Shown here piece after piece: positions 13,460-34,689 of a stretch of DNA of 44,862 bases. Position 1 is the first letter of the stretch, and each line of letters starts with the position of its first letter. A program made the translations under genes and the position numbers. Where the stretch lies: assembly GCA_006226965.1 (NCBI GenBank), contig SBGQ01000106.1:1-44862 (forward strand), read 5' to 3'. The DNA comes from a bacterium (GTDB lineage: Bacteria > Bacteroidota > Rhodothermia > Balneolales > M1805). The notes under the pieces were generated by a model, which was not told the DNA's origin, did no database searches, and worked only from the letters and a program-made list of their open reading frames with translations.

Positions 13460-14833
13460 TTAATCCTTCAATAAAATATAATATTCGTAGTTCGAGACCG
13501 GGAGCGTTGAGTTTAATTGAACTGTGTTACCATTTATCAAATTCTTAAACGATAAGCCGGTGAATTCGGTCGGAATTGATACAGAGAGTGATTTATTTCG
13601 AATGTTCGCTATAAATAATAGTGTGTCATTGTTAAATGTCTTGCTAAAAACAACGGCATCATTCGTTGAAAAATCGGTGATAAAATCCGATTTAGATATT
13701 TCATAGTCTGAATACACTTTCAATAAACTCTTATATGCACCAATCATAGTTGGGTTTTGAGTCCAATCAATGGGTGATTTTGTAAAAAACGGTGTGGTTG
13801 AAGCTCTGCCGACTTCTTGCCCTGAATACAAAAGTGGCACACCACCCATAAAAATGGTAATTGCAGATGCGGTAAGGGCTACATCAACACCTCCGAAAAG
13901 TGTGATTGGCGATGCATCCCATGCCGACTCATCATGATTTGTCGTAAATCTGAGTACATGCCTGTTTACTAAAACGGAATTGTATTCGTTTAAATGAGTT
14001 TGATACAAACTTGAAGCTGATGAGCCTTTGAATGCGTTTTTTAAGCTGTTGTAATAGTTCCAGCCGTAAATCATAGCAAAACCGGCTTTTAAATGGTCGT
14101 CTCTTACACCTTCAGCGAGAAAGATAAATTTTCTATTCGGAATTGATTTTATACGAGAGATTGCAGATTGCCAAAAATCGAACGGAACACCGTCAGCATA
14201 ATCACATCGAAAGCCGTCAATATTTGCTTCAAGAGCCCAATACATCATGGCATCAATCATCGCGAATCGCATCTCTGCATTGTTAAAGTTTAAATCAGCA
14301 ACATCAGTCCAGTTTGTTCCTTCCGGATGAATTATTTCTCCGGATGAATTTTGTGTGTACCAAGATGAATTTTCCATCCAAACATTATCCCAGGATGTAT
14401 GATTAGCTACCCAATCCAGTACAACAGCAACGCCGTTTTCGTGTGCCAAATCCGTTAACTCCCGAAGTTTATCAAGTGATCCGTACTCTGTATCGACTGC
14501 TTTAAAGTTTTTAATACAATAGGGAGAGTTAATTGAGTTAACTATTCCGGCTTCATAAATAGGCATCAACCAAATAGTATTAACACCGAGAGCTTTTATT
14601 TCATTAAACCGATTAATAACACCCTGTAAATCACCTTCAGTTGAAAAAGCTCTTAAATTAACTTCATAGATAACTAAATCTTTAGTGTCTGGCACTTCAG
14701 CAAAAGGCGTTGCGTATTGGGTATAAGAGTCCCCCGGTAAAACTTCTTTTTCAGTTTCTTGTTTATCAGAACAAGTAAGAAGTAGAAAGAGTGCAGATAG
14801 CCAGACAAATAAGGTGCGAAGCAAAATCTTCAT
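13460..14833 (-). CDS. GH13 alpha-amylase family lipoprotein
   Basis: A 457-aa enzyme, short for the family, with a lipoprotein signal (LLLTC, predicted lipidated Cys21). The barrel begins near DLVIYEVNLRAFS. Conserved regions are I VVLDWVANHT (D140, N144, H145), II GFRCDYAD (R209, nucleophile D211), III FLAEG (acid/base E241) and IV TTNHDE (H300, D301), so it should be active. A compact C-terminal beta-domain follows, and no separate carbohydrate-binding module is seen. Lipid anchoring places it in the outer membrane, where it could act as a SusG-like or periplasm-facing alpha-amylase. It is the first gene of the minus-strand pair and is divergent from the large glucan operon, with which it shares a 299-bp regulatory gap. 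Confidence 0.9.
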   Translation of the reverse strand: MKILLRTLFVWLSALFLLLTCSDKQETEKEVLPGDSYTQYATPFAEVPDTKDLVIYEVNLRAFSTEGDLQGVINRFNEIKALGVNTIWLMPIYEAGIVNSINSPYCIKNFKAVDTEYGSLDKLRELTDLAHENGVAVVLDWVANHTSWDNVWMENSSWYTQNSSGEIIHPEGTNWTDVADLNFNNAEMRFAMIDAMMYWALEANIDGFRCDYADGVPFDFWQSAISRIKSIPNRKFIFLAEGVRDDHLKAGFAMIYGWNYYNSLKNAFKGSSASSLYQTHLNEYNSVLVNRHVLRFTTNHDESAWDASPITLFGGVDVALTASAITIFMGGVPLLYSGQEVGRASTTPFFTKSPIDWTQNPTMIGAYKSLLKVYSDYEISKSDFITDFSTNDAVVFSKTFNNDTLLFIANIRNKSLSVSIPTEFTGLSFKNLINGNTVQLNSTLPVSNYEYYILLKD

Positions 14834-15084
14834 TAGAAAAACGTTCGTTAAAATTGGAACGTAGTGATTATTGAAAAAAAAGGAAATGCTTACATAGGGT
14901 TGTGATAATTTTTGACATTTACCTCTTATACACTTAGAAATGTGCGCCTGTTGTTGTACATCACAGAGCTGTTTTTTTAGTAATAATTTTCTTGTTAAGT
15001 GATTTAATATTAAATGTTTGAGTGGTTCGATGGCTATTGTTTTATAGTCAGATAAAAAAAGATGTTAAATGCTTAAATATAGAC

Positions 15085-15113
15085 TTGAAAAATGTAAGCG
15101 CTTTCACTATTAT
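15085..15113 (+). promoter_or_regulatory. Sigma70-like promoter of the glucan operon
   Basis: TTGAAA (15085-15090; 5 of 6 to the -35 consensus), an exactly 17-nt spacer, then TATTAT (15108-15113; 5 of 6 to the -10 consensus). Transcription would begin around 15119-15121, giving a short leader of about a dozen nucleotides before the ATG at 15133. The spacer is filled by the LacI-type operator. Confidence 0.6.
15093..15106. promoter_or_regulatory. LacI/CRE-type operator
   Basis: TGTAAGCGCTTTCA is a near-palindrome around a central CG and fits the LacI/GalR-family catabolite-responsive-element pattern (TGNAANCGNWNNCA). It lies wholly between the -35 and -10 boxes, where a bound repressor would exclude RNA polymerase. 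The LacI-family gene at 28417 is the natural candidate to bind it. Confidence 0.7.
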
Positions 15114-15132
15114 AGATTCGGTTGGTAAAAAA

Positions 15133-16836
15133 ATGATTAGAAAAGCGGTACATATTACAGGTTTTCTTTGGCTCGTTTGCGGGTTTGCTTCTTGCAATTA
15201 CGATACCGGAAGTATGTCTGGCGGCGATGTGTTGGCGTCAATAAATGACAAGTCGATAACTGTTCAGCAGTTTGAGAATGCCTTTAACTACTATCGAAGA
15301 AAAAGTGGTTATGCATTGGAGCCCAATTCAAAAACCAAATTGGATGTGTTGAACAATGAATTCAGTAAGTTGGTTCTGGCGCAAGTTGCACAAGATAAAG
15401 GCTATGATTTACAGGACGAGATTGTTCATGAGAATAAAATTATTGAAAGACAATATTTACTTGATTTATACCAAAAAGAAGTTGTTGAAAACAGTGTAGC
15501 AATTTCAGAAAAAGAGTTGCGCCAATTGTTTGTATATGCAAATACCCGAGTTAAAGCGTCACATCTTTTTGCGCCAACATTAACTGAAGCATTACAATTA
15601 AAAGTAAGATTACAAAACGGTGAATCATTTGAAAATTTGGCTAAAGAAGTTTTCAAAACGAGCTATTTAGCAACAAGTGGTGGCGATGTAGGCGAGTTTG
15701 GATTTGATGAAATGGATATTGCATTCGAGTTGGCTGCGTTCAATGCAAAGGTAGATTCAGTTGTTGGGCCGGTTAAAACAGCGCAGGGGTATAGTTTAAT
15801 AAAAGTTACTTCCAAATTTACCAAGCCATTAATCACTGAGAATGAATTTAACGGTATGCGCTCAAACTTGGCCGTGATTGCTAAGCGCAGAGAAACGGAG
15901 TTGAAGAAAAGATTTTTACTCGATGCTTTTGTTACAAACTTTCAACCAGATGAAAAAGTGGTGACAAATTTGTGGGAAAAGATTCACGAAGGTCTGCAGA
16001 ATAATCGGGAAAATGAATATAAAAGAGATGTTATAATGAAAGTCGCGGGTGGTACATCCGGCGACTTTGGTGTTTTTGATGATATCGTTATTAGTGCTGC
16101 TGATGTAGTGAATGAATTATATTATTCACCAGAATTGACGCTTGACAGAATTAAAAATAAAGCAGTATTCAGTAATATGATTTTAGGGTTAGCGTACAGG
16201 GTTTATCAGCTCAAAAAGGTTGATAATTTAGGTTTAGTGCGTAAAACTGACGTAAATGAGCGAATAAAATATGCTCAAAATATGAATTTGGTGAAGGCAT
16301 TATTAGCAGACTTAGAGGATGAGATAAACATACCCGATTTTGAAATCTATGCTTATTACGAGGCTAATAAATCGAATTTAGAAAAACCACTGCAAATGGA
16401 TTTCTTAAAAATTGTAACTGACTCAAAAGAAAAAGCAGTAAAAGCTTTGGAAGAGCTCAATTCAAACAAAAGTAACGAGCTGGCTGTATTGAAGAAGTAT
16501 ACAATAGATAATGAAAGTTTACTCTACAACGGTAGAACCGGACTAAAACCAATTCAAGAATTTGGTACAATCGGGTTAAAGTTAAAACTGTTAAATCCCG
16601 GACAAATTTCAAGTGTAATTGATGTAAGCGAAACAGAATATCATGTTTACGTTTGCAAAGAACGTCAGAATTCAAGATTACTTTCAATCGATGAAGCTTG
16701 GGGACAAATTGAAAGAACTTTAAAAGAAAAAACACTAGCTCAGGAAAAAACAAAATTGATGGCTGAGTCCTCAAAGTTGCATGATGCTAAAGTTTTTACG
16801 GAAAAAATTCAAACACTAGCTCTTAAACTCAATTAA
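15133..16836 (+). CDS. SurA-like peptidyl-prolyl isomerase lipoprotein
   Basis: A 567-aa protein from the start chosen here. The N-terminus is a lipoprotein signal (MIRKAVHITGFLWLVCGFASC, acceptor Cys21). A SurA-N-like helical region follows (about 33-125), then a PpiC/parvulin rotamase domain (about 137-222: VKASHLFA, SGGDVGEFGF, AQGYSLIKV) and a C-terminal region with a second, weaker PpiC-like segment (about 415-505). Such proteins chaperone outer-membrane barrels. As first gene of the glucan operon, it may be dedicated to folding the receptor and barrel encoded downstream. An in-frame ATG at 15022 would add 37 residues, but that extension is not signal-like and overlaps the promoter and operator. 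Its stop is 2 nt before the TonB receptor gene. Confidence 0.82.
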   Translation: MIRKAVHITGFLWLVCGFASCNYDTGSMSGGDVLASINDKSITVQQFENAFNYYRRKSGYALEPNSKTKLDVLNNEFSKLVLAQVAQDKGYDLQDEIVHENKIIERQYLLDLYQKEVVENSVAISEKELRQLFVYANTRVKASHLFAPTLTEALQLKVRLQNGESFENLAKEVFKTSYLATSGGDVGEFGFDEMDIAFELAAFNAKVDSVVGPVKTAQGYSLIKVTSKFTKPLITENEFNGMRSNLAVIAKRRETELKKRFLLDAFVTNFQPDEKVVTNLWEKIHEGLQNNRENEYKRDVIMKVAGGTSGDFGVFDDIVISAADVVNELYYSPELTLDRIKNKAVFSNMILGLAYRVYQLKKVDNLGLVRKTDVNERIKYAQNMNLVKALLADLEDEINIPDFEIYAYYEANKSNLEKPLQMDFLKIVTDSKEKAVKALEELNSNKSNELAVLKKYTIDNESLLYNGRTGLKPIQEFGTIGLKLKLLNPGQISSVIDVSETEYHVYVCKERQNSRLLSIDEAWGQIERTLKEKTLAQEKTKLMAESSKLHDAKVFTEKIQTLALKLN

Positions 16837-16838
16837 AT

Positions 16839-19766
16839 ATGAGTAAAGTAAAACTACTACTTCTCACCATTGGTCTATTGGTAGGTATATCAAGCCAGAG
16901 TTTTGCACAAAGCGGTAAAATTACGGGTAAGATTATTGATGCAACAACCGGTGAAACATTACCCGGTGCAAACGTCGTTATTGACGGAACAACACGTGGG
17001 GTTCAAACAGACATAGACGGGAATTACTTATTGTTGAACGTGCCTCCCGGTACATACACAATTGTAGTTTCATACATCGGTTATAGTGCACAACGTGTAA
17101 ACGAGGTAATTGTAAGAACTGATCTGACAACAGAATTAAATTTCAAATTAAAAGAAGAGATTTTTGAAGGTGAAGAGATTGTTGTTCAGGCAGAACGTGC
17201 ATTGATTATTAAAGATTTAACGAGTTCAGAAGCACGTGTAAGCAGTGAGGAAATTCAAAAACTACCTGTGCAGGAATTACAAGACGTAGTGCAGTTGCAA
17301 GCTGGTGTTAACGTTGGTAATGATGGTGCAATTCACATTCGTGGTGGTAGAGCTTCTGAAGTTTCTTATGTAGTTGATGGTATTCGTGTTACAGATAACT
17401 ACAACAGAAGCCAAGGTTTACGCGTTGAAAATCAAGCAGTACAAGAATTACAAGTAATTTCAGGTACATTTAACGCTGAACATGGTCAGGCTATGTCCGG
17501 TATTATTAACGTTGTTACTAAGTCCGGTTCCAATGTATATGATGCTAATGTGAGTATGTGGGGCGGTTCCTATTTAACAGCACATGGAGCAAGATATGAC
17601 GGTATTCCTAATGCCGTTCAGGAATTTAATCCAATGGATCAATACAATTTAAGTGCGAGTGTATCGGGTCCGATTGTAAAAGATAAACTTACATTTTTTG
17701 CTACAGCACGAAAGTTTAGAAATGATGGGTGGTTAAAAGGATACAATGCGTTTTCATATCATGGCGCGTATCGTGATACCGTTCCAATGGGAACAGATTT
17801 AAACGCTTACAGAGATTTATATAACCAATCCATAGATTTGTCGAGTTCTTGGATTTCAGTAGATACTATAGGAACAGGAAGTTCACAAAGAATTGTAATC
17901 AGAGATTCCGGAAAAAGAGACAGCTCTATTGTAGATGCAAACCCATTTGATACACAAAGTTTTTTAGCGAATTTTCAATACAGCCCGTTTGCAATGTTGA
18001 AATTCAACATTATTGGAAGCTATGGTAAAGAACAAGGACGTGGATATGATCACGCTAATCGATTGGTTCCTGGTGGTTCTCCTTCATTTTACAATGAAAA
18101 TTATTCTGTGAATTTCAAAACGACAATTACACCTAGTAGTTCTACATACATTGTGTTTAACGCTGCTTACAGGGTAAATACAAGTGATAGTTATTTATTT
18201 AAAGATCCATACGATCCTAGATTCTTTAATTATCAGAACATTGAGGTTTTTGATATACAAAATCCGGGTCAAGCTTATCAATACAATCAAGTAAACTCTA
18301 GTAATAATATTTTTTCTCGGGGAACAGAATCCGTTATTGCAAAAGTTGAATTATCAAGTCAATTGAATAAGCAACACTTTATAAAGGCAGGTGTTGAATA
18401 TCAGATGGATAATGTTCGTTTTGAGAATATTAACTTGCAACCTTTGGATGCCGGACAAGGAATAGTAATACCAGATTATATTCCAGTTGAATTACAAGAT
18501 AAAATTGAGCTGGGAATAGCACCGATTAATACCACAAACTATCAGAAATATGATAGAAGTCCATCATACTTGAGTGCTTTTTTACAGGATAAAATTGAAT
18601 TTGAAAAACTCATAATAAATATTGGTTTTCGTTTCGATTATTTTAACCCAAATACACAAATTGCAGCAGACCCCAAAGATCCGGATATATATAACCCAAC
18701 TTTAGCATCAAATATTTATAATGATATCAATAGTAATGGTGTATTTGACGCAGGTGATACAGAGGTTACCTTAGAAGACAGACAGGCTTACTGGTGGAAA
18801 GATGCTGATGCTAAATATCAAATTAGTCCGCGTTTAGGTATCGCATACCCAATCTCAGAAAAAGGTTTAATTTATTTCTCATACGGCTATTTCTTTCAAA
18901 TGCCAAGTTATGAGAATCTTTATACAAATAGCCAGATTATACTACCGCAATCTAGTGGAATATTTGGCCTTTTTGGAAATCCAAATCTTAAGCCTGAACG
19001 CTCTACACAGTACGAATTGGGTTTAAAGCAAGAAATAGCTGCGGGCACGGCTATTGAGGTTACAGGCTTTTATAAAGATTCCAGAGATTATGTTTCATCA
19101 GGTACAATAAATGAAACGTATAACCCGACTGTTAGATACGCCACTTTTATAAATAGAGATTATGCGAGCTCTAAGGGCTTAACTGTTGCTGTAAATCAGG
19201 ATTTAGGCGGTGCATTGACTTTAGGTGTTGACTATACATACACAACTGTAGAGGGTAGTAATTCTAATCCGGCTGACGAGTTTTCAAGAGCGTTGAGTCA
19301 AGGAAACGAGTCCGGTCAATCACTAACAAAATTTATTCGTCCGCTAAATTGGGATAGATCGCATGTATTAAATGGAACATTGTTCTATGCTTCTGATACA
19401 TGGGGCGGGAATGTTGTCGGAAGATTTTACACAGGTACACCGTATACACCTGGTACTCCATTTACTGTTAGATATGGTCCAACAGCATCTCAAAGAGATT
19501 TAACTAATACTGCACGTTTGCCAAATCGTTTGACTTTCGATTTAAATTTGTATAAGAATTTTAAAATTGGGAAAACGGAGATTCGGACGTACGCAAACAT
19601 CTTCAATTTGCTAGACTCTGAGATAATCAATGCCGTGTACTCTGATTCTGGAATACCATCTACTCCGTTAGTTGTACCATCAACAGCGAATCCGGATTAT
19701 TTAGAAAATCCGTCATGGTTTGGTGAACCTAGACGAATTCAAATCGGATTTTCTGTATCACTATAA
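16839..19766 (+). CDS. TonB-dependent receptor with CarboxypepD_reg-like N-terminal domain
   Basis: A 975-aa outer-membrane transporter. The signal peptide is residues 1-24. A carboxypeptidase-regulatory-like beta-sandwich follows (about 25-110, GKITGKIIDATTGETLPGAN ... DGNYLLLNVPPGTYTI). The plug domain contains LQDVVQLQAGV and IHIRGGRASEVSYVVDG (about 140-230), and a long beta-barrel runs to the C-terminal strand. It probably imports oligosaccharides released from starch using TonB energy. No SusD-like lipoprotein gene is adjacent, and the barrel looks like the shorter receptors of Balneolota/Ignavibacteria-type bacteria rather than a typical SusC. It follows the SurA-like gene with only 2 nt between, so the two are co-transcribed. 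Confidence 0.9.
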   Translation: MSKVKLLLLTIGLLVGISSQSFAQSGKITGKIIDATTGETLPGANVVIDGTTRGVQTDIDGNYLLLNVPPGTYTIVVSYIGYSAQRVNEVIVRTDLTTELNFKLKEEIFEGEEIVVQAERALIIKDLTSSEARVSSEEIQKLPVQELQDVVQLQAGVNVGNDGAIHIRGGRASEVSYVVDGIRVTDNYNRSQGLRVENQAVQELQVISGTFNAEHGQAMSGIINVVTKSGSNVYDANVSMWGGSYLTAHGARYDGIPNAVQEFNPMDQYNLSASVSGPIVKDKLTFFATARKFRNDGWLKGYNAFSYHGAYRDTVPMGTDLNAYRDLYNQSIDLSSSWISVDTIGTGSSQRIVIRDSGKRDSSIVDANPFDTQSFLANFQYSPFAMLKFNIIGSYGKEQGRGYDHANRLVPGGSPSFYNENYSVNFKTTITPSSSTYIVFNAAYRVNTSDSYLFKDPYDPRFFNYQNIEVFDIQNPGQAYQYNQVNSSNNIFSRGTESVIAKVELSSQLNKQHFIKAGVEYQMDNVRFENINLQPLDAGQGIVIPDYIPVELQDKIELGIAPINTTNYQKYDRSPSYLSAFLQDKIEFEKLIINIGFRFDYFNPNTQIAADPKDPDIYNPTLASNIYNDINSNGVFDAGDTEVTLEDRQAYWWKDADAKYQISPRLGIAYPISEKGLIYFSYGYFFQMPSYENLYTNSQIILPQSSGIFGLFGNPNLKPERSTQYELGLKQEIAAGTAIEVTGFYKDSRDYVSSGTINETYNPTVRYATFINRDYASSKGLTVAVNQDLGGALTLGVDYTYTTVEGSNSNPADEFSRALSQGNESGQSLTKFIRPLNWDRSHVLNGTLFYASDTWGGNVVGRFYTGTPYTPGTPFTVRYGPTASQRDLTNTARLPNRLTFDLNLYKNFKIGKTEIRTYANIFNLLDSEIINAVYSDSGIPSTPLVVPSTANPDYLENPSWFGEPRRIQIGFSVSL

Positions 19767-19795
19767 TCAAGATTTTCAAAAATAAACTGACTACT

Positions 19796-22700
19796 ATGAA
19801 ATACTTGTCAATTTTAATATTACAACTGAGCCTATTTGCCGGATATGCAATTGCTCAGACAACTTATGAGCCAAGTGAGTTTCGTTCAAGGTTTCAGGAA
19901 CGAAAAAAATCAACTATGGATGGGAATCAGCTAAAAGCTACTTACCATAACTACGGTCAAGGGGGGACGGTGGATAAAAGTCTTCCAGATGAGGTTGCTT
20001 ATGAATTTCCTCGTAATACCGGGCGCCAATATATGTTATTCCAGATGATTTTTGTAGGTGCTGAAGTTCCAAACCAAGCAAATGGTGGAAACCCCTTCCC
20101 AATTGTAGATGTAGCTAACTTAAGAGAGAGCAGATCAGGAAGTAGCTGGGCATTAAATCCAATATCTGGATATTCTAATTCATCAACTACGGAACTAGCG
20201 AGAAGTGACAGAGGTCCGGGACATCCGCTTGGTAATACTTGGCCTCCATATTGGCCCGATAAGATTCTTGATGGCGGTGATGGTTGGGCAAATGCATGGA
20301 ACGGTTTTTTTGGTAAAGACCAGTTTAATGCCGATATCGAATTTTTTTACAGATCAGGTGACGACTTATACACGAGATACCTTACTCAATCTTCTACTAA
20401 TCTTTTATGGAGACCGGATAGTACTGATGCAACTCGAGGTGGTTTAGGTTTCTTGATTGATGCCAGAATTATGGCTTGGACACAAACATTAATAAACTCT
20501 ACTCATTTTAATATCTATGAGTTGACAAATGACGCTTCTTTTGGGTATGACAAAGTCGCTTTTGGGCTATGGATAGCAGATTTCGTCGGAAATAATGCAA
20601 GTAATGACGCCCCACAGTTTGACGAGATTCAGGCAACTGCATATATCACAGATAAAGACAGGGTATTATCAGAACCTATTTTTGACGGACCAATCGGTGA
20701 AATGGGGATGAAGTTTTTAGAAACGCCTGGTAATGCAATTGATGGTATTGATAATGATGGTGATTCATATAGATATGACCCAACAAATGCGAACCCTGTC
20801 GGCTTAGCCCTTTATTCAACTGATAATTCTGATTTGTATTCTAATTTATTAAGTACAAATGGAGGATTTCATAATCAGAACGCGCTTAGAGACTCAGTCA
20901 TCCCATATTTTAAGTTGGCAGACTTTCAGAGTACGACATTAACAGCCGGTGACAAAATTGTATTAATTGGTCCGAATGATGAACGAATTGTAGCAGAATA
21001 TCCAGTAGGCGGCGGAACTGTTATAAGCCAAGGCAGAACAATAGTATTACCAGCTAATGGATTATCTGTTAATGAGGCTTTAGATGTTGTAAATAAAACG
21101 CATGCTGATTTAATTGATAACGATTTTGACGGCTTAATTGATGAAAATGAACCAAACCATTTGGAAAAAGTCATAACTAGATCCGCTTTAGATACGATAG
21201 GTGTTGAAATGCCAGTCCGTTATATCAATTACAAATATTTTGCAGTTGGAGATACTATTCAAAATGGGTTGATAGTGCCGAATCGTCTAATTCGTGAACG
21301 AATGTCAAACGATCCGATTTTCGCTGATTTAGTTAATGATAAGTATGATGGGAGATTTATTAATATATACACAGCCGCTCCAATGATTGATGAAGCAAGA
21401 GATGATTATTTTGATAACGATCAAGACTGGAATCCATTAATTGATGACGTAGGCTTGTCAGGTAATGATGAATCACCTTCTGCAGGGTTAGGTGATGGAA
21501 AACCGACATCCGGAGCAGGTACTGTACAACCAGGTGAACCTAGCATTGATAAAACCGATGTAAGTGAAAGCGATTTAATTGGAATATCAAGAGTTAATAT
21601 TTTTGCTGCCGGACAGTTAGATACAGATCAAGATTTAGTGAATTGGAGTAATTATTTAATTCCAGGTGATTTTGTTACAGATATAAATACTGACTCAGAC
21701 ATTTTTGTAAGCTCATCATTATTTCCTTTAAGAAGAGGCCGAACGGAACGGTTTGCATTAGCTATTACTGCTGTACAGACAAAAAGTCAAACTCGATCAA
21801 ATGATAGAAGAGCTACAAATGATAATTTAGAGCAAGCAACAAAGGCTTATGAATCAGACTATCAATTTGCGACAGCGCCGCTACCTCCGGTTGTAAAAGC
21901 CGTTACTGGTGATGGATTTGTTACTCTTTATTGGGAACCGAATTCAGAAGAATCATTTGACAGATACTTGCAAAAAATAACCGGGAATGGTTATGATTTT
22001 GAGGGTTACAAAATTTATCGCGCGACTGATAATGCATTCGAAGATGCTTTAAAAATAACAAATGCGTATGGAACACCTCAGTTCCTGCAGCCTTTAATAA
22101 CCTTTGATAAAGTAGATGGTATAGAAGGGCTGCATCCGGTTTCTGTTCGTGGTGTACAATATGACATGGGATCAGAAAGCGGTCTCCAATATAGCTTTAC
22201 TGATCGCAATGTGGTAAATGGAAAGCAGTATTATTATGCAGTTGTTGCTTTTGATTTTGGTGCTGAATCTGCTGGTATTGCACCTTCAGAATCTCCGGTT
22301 CAAATCAGCCAAAATCCAAATGGTACCATATCTCTAGGACTAAATGTTGTAAGTGTGCGTCCGTCTGATGAGCAAGCAGGCTTTGTTGATCCGGATGCAC
22401 CGACAGTAACGTTAGTTAGTGGTTCACCAGGAGGTACTGTTGAAGTAACTGTGACAGATCCATATGCATTGAAAGAAAATGCAGTATACAATGTTGTTTT
22501 TGAAGATACTTTGATTGCATCAACAATTGTGGGAAGACCAGATACCATTCGTACTAAAAACTTTAGTTTATTAGACGTTTCCGGAACAAGTGTTGATACA
22601 TTAATTGGAAAGTCCACGGATTTTAACGGAGAATATTTGCCAATTACAGATGGATTTACCTTAAAGCTTTTTAATAAAGAAAATCTTGAGATAAATACTG

Positions 22701-23581
22701 AGTTGACAAAGTGGAAATCTATTGATGAGACTAAGGCTATTCACCCAACTGATGTAGTAATTCAGAGCAAACCCAAAGTAAATGACTATAATATTATTAT
22801 TGGTGATGCTGTAGGTTTTGGACAATCTAGTGCAGGTACAGTAGGAGTAACTAACTTACCTTCAATTCCTACAAACTTTAAAGTATATAGTCCATACGAA
22901 GGTGTTGAGATTCCATACATTTTCTTAGATAGAAACAAGAATAATAATCCTAGAGATACTGCTGCACAGCCTGATACAACAGACCCTGGTGTATTTAGTT
23001 CATATGTGGGAGTGTTAGGTTCTGCTCCAGATGCCATTTATTTATTAGAAACAGTAAATGGAGTTCAAAATGTACAGACTTACAGAATTCAAATGAATGC
23101 AGTAAGAACGGAAGGAGTTGTCACTACTAGAAATCCGAAATCAGGTGATACATTGAAAGTTCGAACTATCAAGCCATTCACTGATAACGACATTTTTGAA
23201 ATTAGAATTAACTCTGCAAATGTTCCAAAAGTAGATAATGAACTTGCAAAGTCAGAATTAGACAATATAAAGGTTGTTCCAAATCCGTATGTGGTTTCTA
23301 GTCCATATGAGCCACGGCGAACAGTTAATAATCCCGTACAACAGCGTGAATTACATTTTACACATATACCGCTTCCATCTACTTTAAGAATATTTACAGT
23401 AGCTGGTGTAATGATTCGTGAAATTAAACTTGCAGCTGGTGATCCTAGGGTATTTAATGGGACGTATCGGTGGGATATGCTAACCAAGGATAATCTTGAA
23501 ATATCGTATGGTGTGTACATATATCATATAGATGCGCCCGGTGTTGGAAGTACTACTGGTAAATTTGCGGTAATCAAATAA
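19796..23581 (+). CDS. Large secreted protein with Asp-rich Ca-binding-like motifs and a C-terminal sorting-like domain
   Basis: A 1261-aa protein with a signal peptide (about residues 1-20, ending AIAQ). No enzyme fold is recognised. Three Asp/Asn-rich segments resemble calcium-binding loops of thrombospondin-3/dockerin type: IDGIDNDGDSYRYD (about 313-327), LIDNDFDGLIDENE (about 438-452) and DDYFDNDQDWNPLIDD (about 536-551). A fibronectin-III-like region starts near 697 (GDGFVTLYWEPNSEE, GYKIYRATDN) and runs to about 830. The end (about 1159-1261) begins VVPNPYVVSSPYEP and closes with a GVYIYHI...GKFAVIK strand pattern, typical of a T9SS-type sorting domain variant. Encoded 29 nt after the receptor and 11 nt before the PorV-like gene, it may be the surface partner that replaces SusD. 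Confidence 0.8.
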   Translation: MKYLSILILQLSLFAGYAIAQTTYEPSEFRSRFQERKKSTMDGNQLKATYHNYGQGGTVDKSLPDEVAYEFPRNTGRQYMLFQMIFVGAEVPNQANGGNPFPIVDVANLRESRSGSSWALNPISGYSNSSTTELARSDRGPGHPLGNTWPPYWPDKILDGGDGWANAWNGFFGKDQFNADIEFFYRSGDDLYTRYLTQSSTNLLWRPDSTDATRGGLGFLIDARIMAWTQTLINSTHFNIYELTNDASFGYDKVAFGLWIADFVGNNASNDAPQFDEIQATAYITDKDRVLSEPIFDGPIGEMGMKFLETPGNAIDGIDNDGDSYRYDPTNANPVGLALYSTDNSDLYSNLLSTNGGFHNQNALRDSVIPYFKLADFQSTTLTAGDKIVLIGPNDERIVAEYPVGGGTVISQGRTIVLPANGLSVNEALDVVNKTHADLIDNDFDGLIDENEPNHLEKVITRSALDTIGVEMPVRYINYKYFAVGDTIQNGLIVPNRLIRERMSNDPIFADLVNDKYDGRFINIYTAAPMIDEARDDYFDNDQDWNPLIDDVGLSGNDESPSAGLGDGKPTSGAGTVQPGEPSIDKTDVSESDLIGISRVNIFAAGQLDTDQDLVNWSNYLIPGDFVTDINTDSDIFVSSSLFPLRRGRTERFALAITAVQTKSQTRSNDRRATNDNLEQATKAYESDYQFATAPLPPVVKAVTGDGFVTLYWEPNSEESFDRYLQKITGNGYDFEGYKIYRATDNAFEDALKITNAYGTPQFLQPLITFDKVDGIEGLHPVSVRGVQYDMGSESGLQYSFTDRNVVNGKQYYYAVVAFDFGAESAGIAPSESPVQISQNPNGTISLGLNVVSVRPSDEQAGFVDPDAPTVTLVSGSPGGTVEVTVTDPYALKENAVYNVVFEDTLIASTIVGRPDTIRTKNFSLLDVSGTSVDTLIGKSTDFNGEYLPITDGFTLKLFNKENLEINTELTKWKSIDETKAIHPTDVVIQSKPKVNDYNIIIGDAVGFGQSSAGTVGVTNLPSIPTNFKVYSPYEGVEIPYIFLDRNKNNNPRDTAAQPDTTDPGVFSSYVGVLGSAPDAIYLLETVNGVQNVQTYRIQMNAVRTEGVVTTRNPKSGDTLKVRTIKPFTDNDIFEIRINSANVPKVDNELAKSELDNIKVVPNPYVVSSPYEPRRTVNNPVQQRELHFTHIPLPSTLRIFTVAGVMIREIKLAAGDPRVFNGTYRWDMLTKDNLEISYGVYIYHIDAPGVGSTTGKFAVIK

Positions 23582-23592
23582 GGACAAAAACG

Positions 23593-24618
23593 ATGAAAAC
23601 TATTTTCAAATCACTTTTAATCGTACTTGTCCTGATGTTAGCCGGACAAGAATTGGGTCATACACAATCAATCACAAAAGCCGGTATATCTGCTGGGCAG
23701 TTCCTAAGAATTCATGTTGGTGCTCGTGGAAGTGCTATGGGGGGTGCAGTGGCTGGTGATGTGTCTGACTTAACATCTATGTTCTGGAACCCGGCAGGTC
23801 TTGCAGATGTTAAAGGTTCTCAGGTACTTATCGAACAAGGAAACATGTACGTCGATTTAACACACAACTTCTTAGCCGCTTCTGCACCAATGGGTAATGG
23901 TGTTTTAGGTGTTAGTGTGACAGCCTTAACAATGGGCGATTTTTATGAGACTACTTATGACAATCCCGAGGGAACAGGAAGAATATTTAATGCTTACATG
24001 TATTCTGTTGGTCTGAGTTATTCAATGTATTTAATTCCGGACTTTAAAATCGGATTTACAGGTAAATTGGTAAATGAAACCATAAGTTACAGCTCAGCAA
24101 CAGGTCTTGCATTTGACATTGGTACCATTTATCGTACACCTTTTGATGGAATACGATTTGGTGTTAGCGTTACAAATATTGGTCTGAACAAAATGCAAAT
24201 GGACGGTGAAGACTTAATCACTACCACTGATTTAGATGACCAAGGTGCAGGGAATTATGAACCGGATTCTAAGTTAGTTACAGACCCATACGATTTACCA
24301 TTAATGCTTCGTGTAGGTTTTGCATATGATGCTTTCCAAACAGAACAATTTCGGGCTACCTTTACTGTTGATGGTACCGTTCCATCAGATAACGTTCAAA
24401 GTGTTAGTATTGGAACTGAGATGGGTTTTTTGAAAGATTTAGTTCAACTTAGAGCTGGCTTACCTTATTTAGGTTTAAAAGATCGAGTTGAACAATTTAG
24501 TGCTGGTATAGGAGTCAAATATCCTGTTGGCTCAATGAAAATGCAATTTGGTTATAGTTATCAGGCTTATAACTATTTAAACCCAATTAGCAGAATATCT
24601 ATTGGAATACAATTTTAA
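23593..24618 (+). CDS. PorV/PorQ-family outer-membrane protein
   Basis: A 341-aa protein with a signal peptide (about residues 1-25). The family's conserved start of the barrel is visible: GQFLRIHVGARGSAMGGA followed by FWNPAGLAD. The rest is alternating aromatic-rich beta-strands consistent with a FadL-like outer-membrane barrel, closing with IGIQF. PorV is the shuttle that binds sorting domains of T9SS cargo and hands them to the attachment machinery. Its position between two large secreted proteins suggests a locus-specific shuttle or pore for those cargos, although the family also contains proteins of unknown role. An AGGA-like ribosome binding site lies in the 11-nt gap before it. Confidence 0.88.
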   Translation: MKTIFKSLLIVLVLMLAGQELGHTQSITKAGISAGQFLRIHVGARGSAMGGAVAGDVSDLTSMFWNPAGLADVKGSQVLIEQGNMYVDLTHNFLAASAPMGNGVLGVSVTALTMGDFYETTYDNPEGTGRIFNAYMYSVGLSYSMYLIPDFKIGFTGKLVNETISYSSATGLAFDIGTIYRTPFDGIRFGVSVTNIGLNKMQMDGEDLITTTDLDDQGAGNYEPDSKLVTDPYDLPLMLRVGFAYDAFQTEQFRATFTVDGTVPSDNVQSVSIGTEMGFLKDLVQLRAGLPYLGLKDRVEQFSAGIGVKYPVGSMKMQFGYSYQAYNYLNPISRISIGIQF

Positions 24619-24671
24619 AAAGCGGAAATACCGTTAACAAAAACAACAACAAATAACCAAAGAGGTTAACT

Positions 24672-27600
24672 ATGAAGAAGGTTACTAAACGTAGTTGGTT
24701 AGGATTACTTGCACTCGTGCTTGGATTATCTAACATTACTACAGTTAAAGCCCAAGAGCCAGTATGGAGTATAAGTGCTCCTGAAGGCGGATGGTTTATG
24801 ACCGATGGAACAGCTCGAGGATTAAGTTACAACCCTGCAACGGGACACTTGATTGTCGCTACTCGTACTCCTGGTCTAAATCCTGTTTTAATTGACGCAG
24901 CTACAGGAGATTCTGTAGGTGTTCTAGATATGACCGGTGTATCTGGTGGATTAATTCCTTATGTATTTATTCAAGCAACTTCTGATGGGCAATTATTTGC
25001 GTCTAACGTTGTTAACTCAGAAGTAGGTGTTCATAAAATCTATCGTTGGGAAAACGAAACAGCTGCCCCAACTGTAATTTATGAAGCCGCTCACGGATCA
25101 ACACAACGTGTTGGTGATTCATTCAAAGCTTATGGAACAGGTAATAACATCTCTTTACTTGCATCGGGTGGAAGTGCATTAGTTGTGAAAATAGCTTGGG
25201 ACGGAACTACTGCAACAAAAACAGATTATACTGTAACTAACAATATTGCACGTGGTGGTTTTTCATCAATGGTAAATGACAGTACAGTTTGGGTTACAGG
25301 TACAGGTACTGCTCCTACATTGTTTGATTTCAAAAACGGAACTTTAGGAGCTTCTTTAACAACTCCTGATGCGGCTATGTTACCTGCAGCTACATTAAAT
25401 TCTGCAATGACAAGTGATGCATTTACTTATTTAGGTAAGTCTTACTTGTTTTTAGGCCCTCATTCTGTTGATAAAAAATTCTGGTTAATCAATTTAACTG
25501 ATAATGAATTAGTAGGTGCCACATCTGCGTTTTCTGCTAATACAAACAGTAACAATAATGGAACTGTTGTTGTTGATAAAGCTAACGGAATGGCTTATGT
25601 AATGATGACAAACAACGTTATTAATGCATATAAATTAACTGAGTTCCTTGGTTCTGCTGTATTTAGCGAATACTTTGAATATGAAACAGGAAGTTTATTA
25701 ACTGCCAATGGTTATGCAGCACATAGTGGTGCTGGTACTAATTCTATTCCAGTTGATGAAACCATGCTCATGTACCCAGGTTATGCAGGAAATTTTGGTA
25801 AATCAGCTAAAATTGTAGCTTCAGGTGAAGATGTAAACAAAACTTTTGGAGAAAATTTTAAAACTGGTAAAGTATATATGTCTGCTTTAGTTAATGCGTC
25901 TAATGCATCGGAAGCTGGAGAATACTTTTTCCATTTTGTTAACTCACAAGGTACCGGCGCTGAATTTAGAGGTCGTGTTTCATTGAAAAAAAATGCTGAA
26001 GGTGCATTAGCATTTGGTATTTCTAAAGCAGCGGGAGCATCAACCTCAACATATACAGATTTTAACTATTCGCTTGATAAGACAAATCTTATCGTATTGG
26101 AATATGTACGTGTTGAAGGTGATTTAAATGATATAGTTAACTTATATGTTAACCCAGTTGGATCTGAACTACCTGCAGTACCTACAGTTTCCGCTGCGGA
26201 TTCTGATGCTGGTGATATTATTGAATTATCAAACTTTGCTATTCGTCAAGGTACTAATAGTCCAGCTTTATTAATTGGTGGTATTCGTGTTGGTACTGAT
26301 TACGCTTCTGTAGTTGGTAATCCAGAAGAAATCATTGAAAATACTGATGTAATGGTAACATTTACATTGAACTTGTCAACATTAGCAGATACTGCTGTTG
26401 CTGGTGATATGGTGTTCATCAATGGTGGTGTTAAAGGTCCAAGAGGCTCTGACACTTTCCTAGATGGTGAAACATTAGGTTGGGATAATAATGCGACAGC
26501 AACATTAACAAACGTTGGTGGTGATTACTGGCAGGCAACTTATAAATTACAAAAAGGCGATACACTTCAATATAAATATCGTTTCCAAAATGCTGGTAAC
26601 ACTGTAAATAAAGATGAGCAAGGAATATTAGTACCACAGGCTCAAAACCCAAATGGTTGGGATACACGTTTCCACATTGCTACAAAAGACACTGTTTTAG
26701 CAGTTGATTACTGGCAAGTTGAAGAAACTGCAAACGGTATTACTTCTGGAATTCCTTTTGCTACAGACAAAGTTGATACAGTTGCCATTTACTTCCGTGT
26801 TAACGTTGGTGCTGCTATTCAAGCAGGAGAATTCAATGTTGAAACAGACTCTGTTGGTGTTCGCGGTACCCCGGAAATTTTTGGAAACCCTGGAGACTGG
26901 AGTGCAACAGCATTCTATTTAACTAAAGAAGAAAACGTATCTGGTGAAAACCAAATGTATAGCGGTACTTTATATTTGAATAAAGACTCTGTAGATGTTG
27001 GTAATACATACATTTACAAATTTGTAACTGAAATTGGTGCAAATAACGATACACAGTGGGATTCAGATCCGAACCGTGAATTCAAAGGTACTTTAGCAGA
27101 TACGACTATTCAGTATCAATATTTCCAAAGAAAAAAACCAGCTTCAGAACCATTGGTTGATGCCTTACTTAACTTCTCAGTTGATGTTGGTATTCTTGAA
27201 GGTTTAGGTTACTTCGATGCAGGTGTTGGTGATAAAGTTCAAGTTAAAGGTGATTTTAATGGTTGGGCTGGAACTGATCCGTTAACCTTTGATCCAATCG
27301 ACTTTACTTGGTCATTAACCGGTAAAAATCTGAAGCGTGTTGCCGGAGATAAAATTAATTATAAATTTTTCATTGAATATGATGCTTCACGATTTGACGA
27401 GGGATCAGTAAATCATTTGCAAGGTATAAACAAAGACTTTGGTTATGAAGAGCCAGGGTTAACAGGCGGTGGTAACCGTGTTTATGAAATTACAAGTGTT
27501 GGTTCACCAGAATCACAAGGCCCTGAACATACCTTCTTTAATGGTGTAGATCCTAGAGGCTTAATTGACAAGCCTATAGACGTTACGTTTAATGTTGATA

Positions 27601-28331
27601 TGAACCCAGCAAAAAGTCATACTGACCCATTTAATCCTGCTGTAGATACAGTTTATATCAGATTCCAAACTAACTATTTCGCTTTAGTTAACGGCGTTTC
27701 TGGTGAGTTAAATTCATTTGACTCTGAGACATTAGAAAAGTTGCGTTTAACTGATCCTGATAATGACGGTGTGTACTCTGTTACTATACCTTTAGCAGTT
27801 CCTTCACCTAACCATATGGGATTCGTAATTTCTTATGGACAGGTATTAGCTGAGTCTGGTCGCCTAGTGACAACAGGTTCTGGTTTTGATGCAGGTCGTC
27901 GTTACTACCAATACATACGTCCAACTCTTGACGGTAGTGGTACTGTGATTTGGCCAGACACTTATAGTATGCCAGTATTACAATGGAAAGAAAAAGACTT
28001 ACCATGGGAACCAGCATTAGATTATGACTTGTTAACTTCAAACGAGAGTACCAATGGCATAGTTCATGAATTTAGCTTAGATCAAAACTATCCTAACCCA
28101 TTTAACCCAACAACCACTATTCGTTTCTCTTTAGCAAATGCTGAAAATGTGAAATTAACAGTGTATAACTTGTTAGGACAAAGAGTTGCAATATTAGCTA
28201 ATAATATTTCAATGGCTGCCGGTCAACATGCTATATCATTTGATGCTTCAAAATTAGCGTCTGGTGTATATATCTACCGAATCGAAGCAGGTAGTTTCAA
28301 TACAAGCAAAAAAATGACATTAATCAAGTAA
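24672..28331 (+). CDS. T9SS-exported multidomain protein, probable surface glucan-binding protein
   Basis: A 1219-aa protein with a signal peptide (about residues 1-28). Residues ~30-330 look like a beta-propeller or lactonase-like repeat region, and ~335-545 like a jelly-roll domain. Four successive beta-sandwich repeats then begin with similar strands: VMVTFTLNLS (about 560), VAIYFRVNVG (about 704), LLNFSVDVG (about 833) and VTFNVDMNP (about 970). The third contains KGDFNGW, a motif typical of starch-binding CBM20/48-like modules. The C-terminal ~88 residues (from QNYPNPFNPTTTIRF) are a type-A T9SS sorting domain, so the protein should reach the cell surface. By analogy with SusE/SusF it may hold starch at the surface; binding is inferred, not shown. 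AGAGG lies 7 nt before the ATG. Confidence 0.82.
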   Translation: MKKVTKRSWLGLLALVLGLSNITTVKAQEPVWSISAPEGGWFMTDGTARGLSYNPATGHLIVATRTPGLNPVLIDAATGDSVGVLDMTGVSGGLIPYVFIQATSDGQLFASNVVNSEVGVHKIYRWENETAAPTVIYEAAHGSTQRVGDSFKAYGTGNNISLLASGGSALVVKIAWDGTTATKTDYTVTNNIARGGFSSMVNDSTVWVTGTGTAPTLFDFKNGTLGASLTTPDAAMLPAATLNSAMTSDAFTYLGKSYLFLGPHSVDKKFWLINLTDNELVGATSAFSANTNSNNNGTVVVDKANGMAYVMMTNNVINAYKLTEFLGSAVFSEYFEYETGSLLTANGYAAHSGAGTNSIPVDETMLMYPGYAGNFGKSAKIVASGEDVNKTFGENFKTGKVYMSALVNASNASEAGEYFFHFVNSQGTGAEFRGRVSLKKNAEGALAFGISKAAGASTSTYTDFNYSLDKTNLIVLEYVRVEGDLNDIVNLYVNPVGSELPAVPTVSAADSDAGDIIELSNFAIRQGTNSPALLIGGIRVGTDYASVVGNPEEIIENTDVMVTFTLNLSTLADTAVAGDMVFINGGVKGPRGSDTFLDGETLGWDNNATATLTNVGGDYWQATYKLQKGDTLQYKYRFQNAGNTVNKDEQGILVPQAQNPNGWDTRFHIATKDTVLAVDYWQVEETANGITSGIPFATDKVDTVAIYFRVNVGAAIQAGEFNVETDSVGVRGTPEIFGNPGDWSATAFYLTKEENVSGENQMYSGTLYLNKDSVDVGNTYIYKFVTEIGANNDTQWDSDPNREFKGTLADTTIQYQYFQRKKPASEPLVDALLNFSVDVGILEGLGYFDAGVGDKVQVKGDFNGWAGTDPLTFDPIDFTWSLTGKNLKRVAGDKINYKFFIEYDASRFDEGSVNHLQGINKDFGYEEPGLTGGGNRVYEITSVGSPESQGPEHTFFNGVDPRGLIDKPIDVTFNVDMNPAKSHTDPFNPAVDTVYIRFQTNYFALVNGVSGELNSFDSETLEKLRLTDPDNDGVYSVTIPLAVPSPNHMGFVISYGQVLAESGRLVTTGSGFDAGRRYYQYIRPTLDGSGTVIWPDTYSMPVLQWKEKDLPWEPALDYDLLTSNESTNGIVHEFSLDQNYPNPFNPTTTIRFSLANAENVKLTVYNLLGQRVAILANNISMAAGQHAISFDASKLASGVYIYRIEAGSFNTSKKMTLIK

Positions 28332-28348
28332 TTGAACTTGTGTCGATC

Positions 28349-28388
28349 AAAAATCCGGGGAGCGCTTAGGCGCTTCTCGGATTTTTTT
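28349..28388 (+). terminator. Terminator between glucan operon and LacI gene
   Basis: A long hairpin has AGCGC / GCGCT around a TTAG loop (28361-28374), extended through G-T and G-C pairs to AATCCG / CGGATT, then a run of T. The total stem is about 17 bp. It lies 18 nt after the stop of the 1219-aa gene and ends only about 28 nt before the LacI start. Confidence 0.9.
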
Positions 28389-28416
28389 AATAGAGAAAGA
28401 TATTAGAGTTATTCCC

Positions 28417-29433
28417 GTGTCAACTTCAACTATATATGACATTGCTAAAGCTGCAAATGTGAGTATTGCAACAGTTTCTCGTGTGTTTAATAACTCAAAT
28501 TCAGTGTCTCCAAAAACAAAAAAGAAAATAATGGAGATAGCAGGAACAATGGGATATCATCCAAAAGCATATGCTCAAGGATTAGCTCGACGAAACTCGA
28601 AAATGTTAATGATTTTAGTGCCGGTTATATCTAACTACTTTTTTATGGAAGTATTAGCCGGTATTCAGGACAAATTACTCGAATACGATTATGATTTAAA
28701 CATTCATAATTTGAATTCAGGTAATTCTTCTGATATCAATGACCAAGTAGATTACGTCGTTAAAAGAGGCTTGGCTGATGGGTATATTCTTGTTTCTGTT
28801 CACCAACAAGAAGCATATTGGGAACAATTAAAATCGTATCAAATCCCACTTGTTCTTATTGATGAATATCATCCAGACTTTGATTCTGTAAGTGTGGATT
28901 CTGTTGAAGGGTCGTATTCTGCAACGAAACATTTAATTGACCAAGGGTATCGGAAAATCGCACTTATTTCAGCAAATCCGTCGTCCAAACCAATGAAAGA
29001 CAGACGCAGTGGTTATAAAAGAGCCCTTGAAGACAATGGGGTGGTAGTTGATGATAAATTAATTATTGTTGACACTAATGACTACAGGGACGGATTTACG
29101 GAAGAAAATGGATACAACTCCATGCTGAAAATTTTAAAAAAGCACCCCGAAGTAGATGCAGTAGTTTGTGCTTCCGATATTCAAGCATTAGGGGCAATAA
29201 AAGCAATGCAAGATGAGGCAAAACGATTGCCAATTATCGGCTTTGATGATTTGCCAATATCAAAGTTTTTAGGCCTTTCAACCATGAAACAGCCGATGTA
29301 CGAAATGGGCACATTAGCCCTAGAGAAATTAATTCAACGAATTAAAAGAAAAGACAACTTAATTAGTCATACAGTCTTTTCACCGGAGTTAATCAAGAGA
29401 GAATCCTCTGTGGCAGATAGTGTTACAGTGTAA
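28417..29433 (+). CDS. LacI/GalR-family transcriptional regulator
   Basis: A 338-aa protein starting at GTG. The N-terminal helix-turn-helix and hinge are textbook (TIYDIAKAANVSIATVSRVFNN, about residues 4-25), and the hinge region lies near 45-60. A periplasmic-binding-protein-like sugar-sensing domain follows (MLMILVPVISNYFFMEVLAGIQDKL, VVCASDIQALGA, PIIGFDDLP). The location inside the amylase locus suggests it senses maltose or a maltodextrin and controls the operator at 15093; the target is inferred. A strong terminator lies just upstream with little room for a promoter, so expression may depend on read-through or on an unrecognised promoter. A GH13 gene follows after 21 nt. Confidence 0.92.
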   Translation: MSTSTIYDIAKAANVSIATVSRVFNNSNSVSPKTKKKIMEIAGTMGYHPKAYAQGLARRNSKMLMILVPVISNYFFMEVLAGIQDKLLEYDYDLNIHNLNSGNSSDINDQVDYVVKRGLADGYILVSVHQQEAYWEQLKSYQIPLVLIDEYHPDFDSVSVDSVEGSYSATKHLIDQGYRKIALISANPSSKPMKDRRSGYKRALEDNGVVVDDKLIIVDTNDYRDGFTEENGYNSMLKILKKHPEVDAVVCASDIQALGAIKAMQDEAKRLPIIGFDDLPISKFLGLSTMKQPMYEMGTLALEKLIQRIKRKDNLISHTVFSPELIKRESSVADSVTV

Positions 29434-29454
29434 CTATAACTTAAATTAGTATTT

Positions 29455-32346: not shown

Positions 32347-32360
32347 TTAATCACTTAATG

Positions 32361-32385
32361 AACCCCGATACTGTCGGGGTTTTTT
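32361..32385 (+). terminator. Intercistronic hairpin-T terminator just before the second GH13
   Basis: The stem AACCCCGA / TCGGGGTT (32361-32368, 32374-32381) with a 5-nt loop runs into a T tract. The next ATG begins only 8 nt after the stem, so the hairpin could act both as a transcription terminator and as a structure near the ribosome binding region. Confidence 0.8.
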
Positions 32386-32389
32386 GTTT

Positions 32390-34162: not shown

Positions 34163-34688
34163 TAACCGATTTTTTAATCGTGTAATACTTATTGCCGCCG
34201 TTTTTAGCTTTATTCTGATTGCCGTTTTTTCATGGGATATGACCGATGAACGGTTGCACTCGTTTCAAGAAGAATACTTGAATACAAATAAATGGGACAA
34301 TACCTATGTTCGTCTGATTGGTTCCCGAGATTCTACATCATTCAAGAATGTTAAAAAGCCGGCTATTGTTTATTTCTGGTCTGGTTGGTCCGAATTAGGA
34401 ATGAACGGGCTAAAAGAATTAGCTGAAATTACCCCGGATTCAATTTCGATTTATGCTGCTGTTGTAAAAGACAACGAATCGGCTTTGGATGGCATTGATA
34501 CAGAGACAAGTGCTCGTGTGAACTTTGTTTATGGAACTAATTGGTATTTATCAAAAAAAGTACCCGCAGTTCCTACTCTATTATTCATCGATTCTCACTC
34601 AAAAATCAGATTGATAGAAGTAGGTTTTAAAAACAAAGACGAAATTGTGAGTCAGTTAGAGCTATTGAATTCAAGCCAGACTAATTAA
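34152..34688 (+). CDS. Membrane-anchored thioredoxin-fold protein lacking the CXXC motif
   Basis: A 178-aa protein with one N-terminal membrane segment (about residues 10-28). The rest has a thioredoxin/TlpA-like strand order. PAIVYFWSGWSELGMNGL sits where the family has a W-C-x-x-C active site, but both cysteines are absent. The later KKVPAVPTLLFID segment carries the conserved cis-Pro position. The fold assignment is by eye and moderate. A redox role is unlikely; a binding or chaperone role is possible. It overlaps the upstream GH13 gene by 11 nt and is 1 nt from pabC, so all are probably translated from one transcript. Confidence 0.65.
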   Translation: MRIDNRFFNRVILIAAVFSFILIAVFSWDMTDERLHSFQEEYLNTNKWDNTYVRLIGSRDSTSFKNVKKPAIVYFWSGWSELGMNGLKELAEITPDSISIYAAVVKDNESALDGIDTETSARVNFVYGTNWYLSKKVPAVPTLLFIDSHSKIRLIEVGFKNKDEIVSQLELLNSSQTN

Positions 34689-34689
34689 T

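Follow-up and report, generated by a model that had tools for sequence, protein, structure and literature searches.

A candidate extracellular partner of TonB-dependent receptors, with a type IX secretion C-terminal domain and an adjacent PorV-like barrel, in Balneolales and related bacteria

In this study, we report the analysis of a gene at positions 19796-23581 (+ strand) of a 44,862-nucleotide stretch of DNA (contig SBGQ01000106.1, assembly GCA_006226965.1, from a bacterium of the order Balneolales), hereafter the window. The open reading frame (ORF) is intact from ATG to stop and encodes a protein of 1261 amino acids (aa), BIG being our working name for this protein and its family. Our preferred reading, held with slightly better than even confidence, is that BIG is an extracellular partner of the adjacent TonB-dependent receptor (TBDT), exported by the type IX secretion system (T9SS), anchored by an outer-membrane barrel and serving the import of starch-derived glucans.

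As stated in a preliminary description of this DNA, the ORF directly follows a TonB receptor (16839-19766), from which it is separated by only 29 bases. On its other side, 11 bases separate it from a gene at 23593..24618 (+) for a PorV/PorQ-family outer-membrane barrel (NF033709, 156.7 bits, cut-off 90), the proposed anchor of BIG. Neither this barrel gene nor the fold of the N-terminal domain of BIG, described below, was part of that description.

Inspected by eye, BIG begins with a signal peptide (19796..19855, + strand, as are all parts of BIG; about residues 1-20) that ends in AIA followed by Q and in which no lipobox was found; a lipobox-like motif occurs in 3 of the 110 BIG relatives with a complete 5′ end. 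The mature protein, of about 1240 aa, consists of an N-terminal supersandwich domain with long insertions (19859..21862, about residues 22-689, from AlphaFold2 and VIA-align), a strongly conserved FN3-like core (21863..22345, about residues 690-850; mean column identity of 46% across the 56 rows of alignment A5) and, at the end, a sorting or docking domain (23273..23578, residues 1160-1261). The FN3-like region noted earlier is present in a diverged form: the Fn3-like 3mpc (E 0.023) is the sole PDB sequence matched by the family profile at E<=1.

Family and gene order

BIG is a large family with no name. The window protein itself matched none of the Pfam-A or NCBIfam families at E<=0.1, and no enzyme family was recognised, as had been said before. 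Among the organism's own genome and 39 others of the same order, 33/40 have a BIG match at E<=1e-5. Across the phylum, matches at E<=1e-20 were found in 156 of 394 genomes and 97 of 170 genera (alignment A1). A scan of named genomes gave at least 547 relatives among 588 candidate stretches; 79 loci, drawn from the best 80 relatives, were kept. By record title, these are from Balneolales, Rhodothermales, Ignavibacteria, Melioribacter, Calditrichota, Marinimicrobia, KSB1 and one Stahlbacteria. The window BIG is about 52-53% identical to orthologues in Balneolaceae and Balneola records, which points to Balneolales as the probable order of the organism. The conserved core (A5) was matched at E<=1e-8 in all 26 genomes searched, at 2-15 places in each.

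The usual order of genes, kept with short gaps in many phyla, is TBDT, BIG, PorV/PorQ-family barrel. The named loci hold 78 BIGs; once those whose tested side had less than 700 bases of flank were omitted, a TBDT lies directly upstream in 61/66 and a PorV-family gene of the same strand directly downstream in 55/61. Since these loci are the best matches, a second sample was taken further down the list of core matches: 40 stretches, hand-picked at about every fourth match listed, of which 32 were counted (six repeated earlier loci and two had no ORF carrying the core). There, all 29 long copies lie within three genes of a TBDT, which is the gene directly upstream in 25 cases, and an adjacent PorV-family gene is seen in 26; each of the three short copies, of about 700 aa, has a TBDT at most three genes away (3/3), a span that holds no PorV-family gene (0/3). 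The possibility raised at the outset that homologues lie mostly away from TonB receptors thus did not materialise. In a hand-chosen set that includes short paralogues (L035-L070 and the own-genome locus L005), the PorV-family gene is directly downstream in 31/37 and the TBDT directly upstream in 30/37. The corresponding counts for L150-L179, ten of which repeat loci of that set, are 25/26 and 29/30.

Other arrangements were also observed. In some loci (L111, L123) the order is TBDT, barrel, BIG, and two loci (L066, L070) carry a reduced triad of TBDT, short BIG (725 and 705 aa) and PorV-family gene. L067-L069, L180, L223, L224 and L226 share a consecutive run of a short BIG of about 700 aa, a protein of 680-1070 aa (T9SS or other), a 500-aa protein and a TBDT; in L180, the gene directly after that TBDT is of the PorV family. 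In L044 (4788-7628) the BIG-PorV pair occurs twice in tandem; the second BIG, of 946 aa, is devoid of the N-domain and carries a BNR/Ycf48-like propeller (PF14870, 1.6e-26). Finally, L057 (7964-12047) has two BIG-like genes in tandem, encoding 671 and 688 aa, and no TBDT or PorV-family gene within the 20 kb read.

The position of BIG after the receptor is that of SusD, which had suggested that BIG might stand in its place. SusD is anchored as a lipoprotein. The SusD family models (PF07980, PF14322, PF12771) match neither the window BIG nor 24 family members; these members matched five families at E<=0.01, SusD not being one of the five. The receptor of the window is not a SusC by the NCBIfam cut-off (TIGR04056, 82.8 bits against 368.25), and the seven triad TBDTs examined, this one included, score 74-104 bits, compared with 900.5 bits for a SusC control from the same genome. 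Among 25 BIG-carrying genomes from several phyla, of unstated completeness, PF07980 is missing in 17, PF14322 in 19, PF12771 in 20 and all three in 14; these 14 genomes have 3-15 core matches each. The idea that BIG takes the place of SusD is supported for these 14 genomes. It does not hold for the organism itself: PF07980 is present in 40/40 genomes (its own and the 39 relatives), so that the candidate statement that the organism has no SusD was rejected, and BIG there adds to SusD rather than replacing it.

Predicted fold of the N-terminal domain

The AlphaFold2 model of BIG residues 22-700, built from 108 rows, has a predicted local distance difference test (pLDDT) of 92.2 and a predicted template modelling score (pTM) of 0.92. 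By VIA-align, its best match is dextran dextrinase 9ju0 (Z 19.0, root-mean-square deviation (rmsd) 3.4, 259 residues aligned), followed by cyclic glucan synthase (Z 18.6) and glucodextranase 1ug9 (Z 18.3); among the glycoside hydrolase (GH) families, the GH94 phosphorylases reach about 18, GH116 reaches about 17 and GH65 15.7. The 50 rows listed are mostly glucan-active enzymes (Z 14.8-19.0, rmsd 3.1-4.4, 211-277 residues aligned). Foldseek returned weaker matches: its first five rows range from E 5.6e-4 to 1.4e-3, with only the best below 0.001. The aligned parts of the GH15, GH65, GH94 and GH116 enzymes are presumably their non-catalytic N-terminal domains, and the supersandwich fold of these domains is seen in the model of the BIG N-domain. 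A SusD-like fold for BIG found no support: no SusD structure is among the Foldseek or VIA-align rows listed, which is not proof of absence.

The likeness of this fold to that of glucan enzymes makes sugar binding by the modelled N-domain likely. An enzymatic role was rejected: the reading of BIG as a GH15/GH65/GH94/GH116-like enzyme, suggested by top fold matches that are parts of such enzymes, is very improbable, as the aligned segments presumably correspond to a non-catalytic domain, helices are few and short in the 22-700 model, which offers no counterpart of and no room for a catalytic (alpha/alpha)6 barrel, and no enzyme family was matched.

About 420 of the 679 modelled residues lie outside the aligned core, and the Asp-rich loops are probably among them. 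The three calcium-loop-like segments reported earlier do exist: DNDGDSYRYD at residue 319 (20750..20779), DNDFDGLIDE at 441 (21116..21145) and DQDWNPLIDD at 542 (21419..21448). They exceed chance by a loose calcium-loop pattern only, with five sites in BIG compared with a mean of 1.0 in 2000 shuffles (five or more in 0.15% of these); the strict pattern D.D.D..[DE] is found in the loop at 441 only and is not significant (15% of shuffles). D319 and D321 (D298/D300 in alignment numbering) are invariant across the 108-row N-domain alignment. In a survey from which two of 114 rows were dropped, the loose pattern occurs in the segments of loops 1, 2 and 3 in 74, 85 and 93 of 112 rows, window included, these counts being rough since the alignment is gappy there. 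The insertion at residues 326-530 (20771..21385) is longer in loci with GH13 neighbours ([[24,5],[6,22]], Fisher p 4e-6, 57 loci, uncorrected for relatedness). The window was counted as GH13-free in this table; the mended table is [[24,5],[5,23]].

C-terminal domain and adjacent barrel

The C-terminal domain of BIG is of the T9SS type, with the layout VVPNPY...GVYIYHIDAPGVG...GKFAVIK. It had been described as a variant sorting-type terminus starting VVPNPYVV, which agrees with its unusual length: from PNPY to the end it counts 100 aa, compared with 78-79 aa for the window's other three sorting domains, and is thus about 20 aa longer than in its neighbours. The same is seen in the family, with medians of 97 aa for BIGs (130/131) and 78.5 aa for other T9SS proteins in BIG loci (92/99). 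In the literature, the C-terminal domains of PorU and PorZ stay on and measure 108 and 96 aa, compared with 67-88 aa from the cleavage site for cleaved ones (PMC11285876).

When compared with NCBIfam, this domain of the window BIG gave PorU (E 0.0041) and PorZ (0.014); the window BIG has no match to the T9SS type A models TIGR04183 and PF18962. Among 24 BIG members, NCBIfam matches at E<=0.01 were to PorZ (16 members), PorU (8) and the general sorting tail TIGR04183 (5); the PorZ and PorU matches fall at the C-terminal end of those models. Searched against PDB sequences, the C-terminal family profile found PorU 6za2 (E 0.013) and PorZ 5m11 (E 0.2) and no cleaved T9SS cargo at E<=1. Designed WRAP repeat proteins also came up as PDB relatives of this profile and were set aside as spurious, their repeat copies each being insignificant. 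In its length and these matches the C-terminal domain of BIG resembles the uncleaved PorU/PorZ type, and it may likewise stay on the protein.

The T9SS itself is present, with the translocon protein SprA in 26/26 genomes. In the organism's own genome, PorU (1007 bits) is encoded beside PorV (281.7 bits, cut-off 250). PorV anchors PorU and PorQ anchors PorZ (PMC5562754). The barrel next to BIG is under the cut-offs of both PorV proper (35.9 of 250) and PorQ proper (74.2 of 220). The model of an orthologue of this barrel aligns with PorV of the T9SS translocon, both as 6h3i_F (Z 30.2, rmsd 3.6, 279 residues aligned) and as 8gl6_F (Z 29.9); it also matches FadL proteins. In the own genome (C76, C173, C176, C179 and C184, that is L180-L184), nine PorV-family genes exceed the family cut-off, and one of them pairs with PorU and four with BIG/TBDT clusters; C184 has two such genes in tandem, with neither kind of partner within the stretch read.

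Docking of BIG to the barrel is supported by prediction. In locus L035, the BIG and barrel genes share one reading frame. The model of the read-through product, which joins BIG (starting at about residue 640) to the barrel and counts 979 aa, reached a pLDDT of 90.5 and a pTM of 0.81, with pLDDT below 50 at residues 1-3 and in the linker 642-664 only; by our own estimate, a chain whose two parts had no predicted placement would reach a pTM of about 0.7 at most. The aligned range starts in the C-terminal domain of BIG in 9 of the first 26 structure-match rows, which is weakly consistent with a contact between this domain and the barrel.

Neighbouring genes and substrate

The genes around BIG in the window make up a locus for starch or maltodextrin. 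On the + strand, the receptor (16839..19766; CarbopepD_reg_2, plug and barrel; PF00593, PF07715, PF13715) is preceded by a SurA/PrsA-like peptidyl-prolyl isomerase (PPIase) with two rotamase domains (15022..16836, PF00639/PF13145). The GTG start of the latter is probably too early; an ATG near 15133 yields the lipoprotein signal VCGFASC, judging from which the PPIase may be membrane-attached. The barrel is followed by a T9SS type A protein with modules similar to carbohydrate-binding modules (CBM) CBM20/CBM48, a candidate surface starch binder (24672..28331; PF18962 and PF00686 over their cut-offs, PF02922 below), by a LacI-family regulator (28417..29433; PF00356, PF00532), by a GH13 enzyme bearing a T9SS type A tail (29455..32346; PF00128, PF18962) and by a GH13 alpha-amylase-family enzyme (32384..34162, PF00128). 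Two further GH13 alpha-amylase-family enzymes are encoded on the divergent - strand, at 11568..13454 (PF00128, 118.6 bits) and 13460..14833 (PF00128, 119 bits). Further away, at 3342-6803 (-), lies a gene whose 1153-aa product combines a PD40 propeller with an amidohydrolase domain.

Scans of positions 14800-34700 gave 43 promoter-like sites compared with 73 in shuffles, and 10 terminator-like sites compared with 10.5, the top stem being at 32360-32382.

Among the 34 named loci with wide flanks, a same-strand PPIase gene is found in 25 and a same-strand match to the class built on the T9SS protein at 24672 (CBMT9) in all 34. Across L035-L043, which are starch loci, the length of the CBM-class protein ranges between 697 and 1398 aa; TBDT, BIG and barrel are constant in size. 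Other BIG loci carry other enzymes: the own-genome paralogue (L005) is surrounded by GH2, GH16 and LacI genes, L048 by GH130 and ABC transport parts, and L049 by GHL10 proteins and a sodium symporter. Thus, one core goes with different enzymes.

Discussion

We propose that BIG is made with a signal peptide and would be exported across the outer membrane through the T9SS. As BIG has no lipobox, another anchor is needed; it would be kept on the surface by its long, uncleaved PorU/PorZ-like C-terminal domain, docked in the adjacent PorV/PorQ-family barrel. The supersandwich domain, with its calcium-loop-like insertions, would lie over the receptor, capture oligosaccharides from the surface GH13 enzymes and pass them to the TonB receptor, BIG acting as a lid or gate. 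The earlier suggestion of a surface lid or scaffold for the receptor thus finds partial support. The parts of this proposal are not equally firm. Computation establishes the family, its order of genes, the fold of the N-domain, the kinship of the barrel with PorV and the occurrence of the T9SS translocon, and docking to the barrel has the support of a prediction. Of the remaining steps, anchoring by the PorV-like barrel is the most probable; that BIG works with the TonB receptor is likely, if a shade less so, and that it binds glycan, as its modelled fold suggests, is a reasonable expectation that ranks next. Lid action is a tentative step, to which we give a little less than an even chance; a contact of BIG with the receptor is likewise putative.

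Several points weigh against the proposal. The NCBIfam scores for PorZ and PorU are 13-22 bits, far under the cut-offs of 260 and 420 (the equivalog cut-off of 260 of the PorZ model NF052228 is not reached, with 13-22 bits in six of eight sequences), and the own-genome paralogue L005, one of seven full-length members compared individually, has no PorZ or PorU match at E<=0.05. The hidden Markov model of the BIG C-terminal domain scores two ordinary sorting domains (1.9e-5, 3e-5) like the own-genome PorU (2.7e-5), which makes the sequence likeness of the BIG C-terminus to PorU and PorZ a weak one. The pTM of a linked chain is no measured interface, and the C-terminal domain accounts for 12 of the top 100 BIG-barrel covariation signals, within the 1-26 of 15 null runs (87 non-redundant pairs, effective number 36). 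Four of the nine over-cut-off PorV-family genes of the genome are in BIG/TBDT clusters. The supersandwich is not confined to sugar proteins, as Foldseek also lists YidC 3blc (E 0.17), and SusD is present in the organism's own genome and in the 39 relatives, as seen above.

Among the alternatives, the best placed is that BIG is a PorV-anchored surface glycan binder of the SusE/SusF kind, co-expressed with the receptor and raising the local sugar concentration with no specific complex. The supersandwich fold and the glycan loci would suit such a role, and the CBM-bearing T9SS protein of the same operon indicates that binders of this kind are used here. However, the linkage of BIG to the receptor, with a TBDT within three genes of every long copy of the second sample, is tighter than would be expected of an accessory binder, and the fixed size of TBDT, BIG and barrel in loci where the CBM-class protein doubles its length sets BIG apart from it. 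We regard this alternative as unlikely.

It is more improbable that BIG and the barrel form a locus-specific T9SS attachment branch, similar to PorZ-PorQ, for the T9SS enzymes of the operon, the link to the receptor being regulatory only. The matches of the C-terminal domain to the PorZ and PorU models, the PorV-like barrel and the CBMT9-class T9SS protein present in every wide-flank named locus are all compatible with it. PorZ carries propellers. The N-domain of BIG, as a supersandwich, is neither these propellers nor the PorU peptidase; moreover, the genome already has its own PorU-PorV pair, and the adjacency of the TBDT would be left with no reason.

The reading of BIG as an anchored partner of the receptor can be compared with several known systems. 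In SusC-SusD systems and utilisomes, too, the TBDT gene is followed by that of a large extracellular partner, glycoside hydrolases and binders act at the surface, and there is one set per glycan. BIG differs from SusD by its lack of a SusD match and of a lipobox, by its mature length of some 1240 aa and by its T9SS C-terminal domain with a barrel gene alongside, and the receptor linked to BIG is under the SusC cut-off. The lid proposed for BIG resembles the BtuB-BtuG pedal bin, where a protein other than SusD covers a TBDT; BtuG is a lipoprotein beta-propeller acting on vitamin B12, whereas BIG is a multidomain supersandwich protein with a proposed barrel anchor (PMC10404256).

PorZ-PorQ and PorU-PorV similarly join a surface protein with an uncleaved C-terminal domain to a FadL-like PorV/PorQ-family barrel (PMC5562754), non-cleavage being presumed for BIG. 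Nonetheless, BIG has a different N-terminal fold, is linked to TBDT and glycan loci and occurs in several copies per genome. In BamA-BamG-BamH, an extracellular dome has as its platform a FadL-like barrel next to a large one; BamH is a lipoprotein and the complex serves outer-membrane protein assembly, not import, and a PorV-like role of BamG was judged unlikely by its authors (PMC12578637). Finally, type B C-terminal domain proteins with PorP/SprF also set a T9SS-exported protein on a dedicated outer-membrane barrel (PMC9143113), but BIG has another barrel family and another type of C-terminal domain.

A cultured species probably has the same module. The Rhodothermus marinus xylan locus Rmar_1067-1081 is described as holding LacI, T9SS enzymes, a TBDT (1070) and three "hypothetical" proteins, two of them with sorting domains (PMC6987092). 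By analogy, Rmar_1071 and Rmar_1072 would be the putative BIG and barrel; unlike the window module as read, this locus has a SusCD pair further along. Going by title and start of abstract, none of the PMC papers among the search hits listed describes the TBDT-BIG-PorV module, a scope outside which subscription papers and preprints fall.

More tentatively still than lid action, we suggest that the module may be a third architecture of TonB importers besides SusCD and BtuBG, in which a receptor is combined with a T9SS-exported supersandwich lid and a PorV-family barrel turned into a permanent anchor. It would be used for many glycans in several phyla of the Bacteroidota-Ignavibacteriota-Calditrichota-Marinimicrobia group and would stand in for SusD where the latter is missing.

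Polysaccharide uptake loci are commonly recognised by their SusC/SusD pairs. If our proposal is true, such loci are overlooked or annotated as hypothetical in Ignavibacteria, Calditrichota, Marinimicrobia, KSB1 and in parts of the Balneolales and Rhodothermales, and one could look for them with the BIG-PorV pair as marker. It would also mean that a T9SS barrel can take on the role of permanent anchor for the partner of a transporter, and it would offer, in the receptor, BIG and the barrel, a concrete complex that can be tested.

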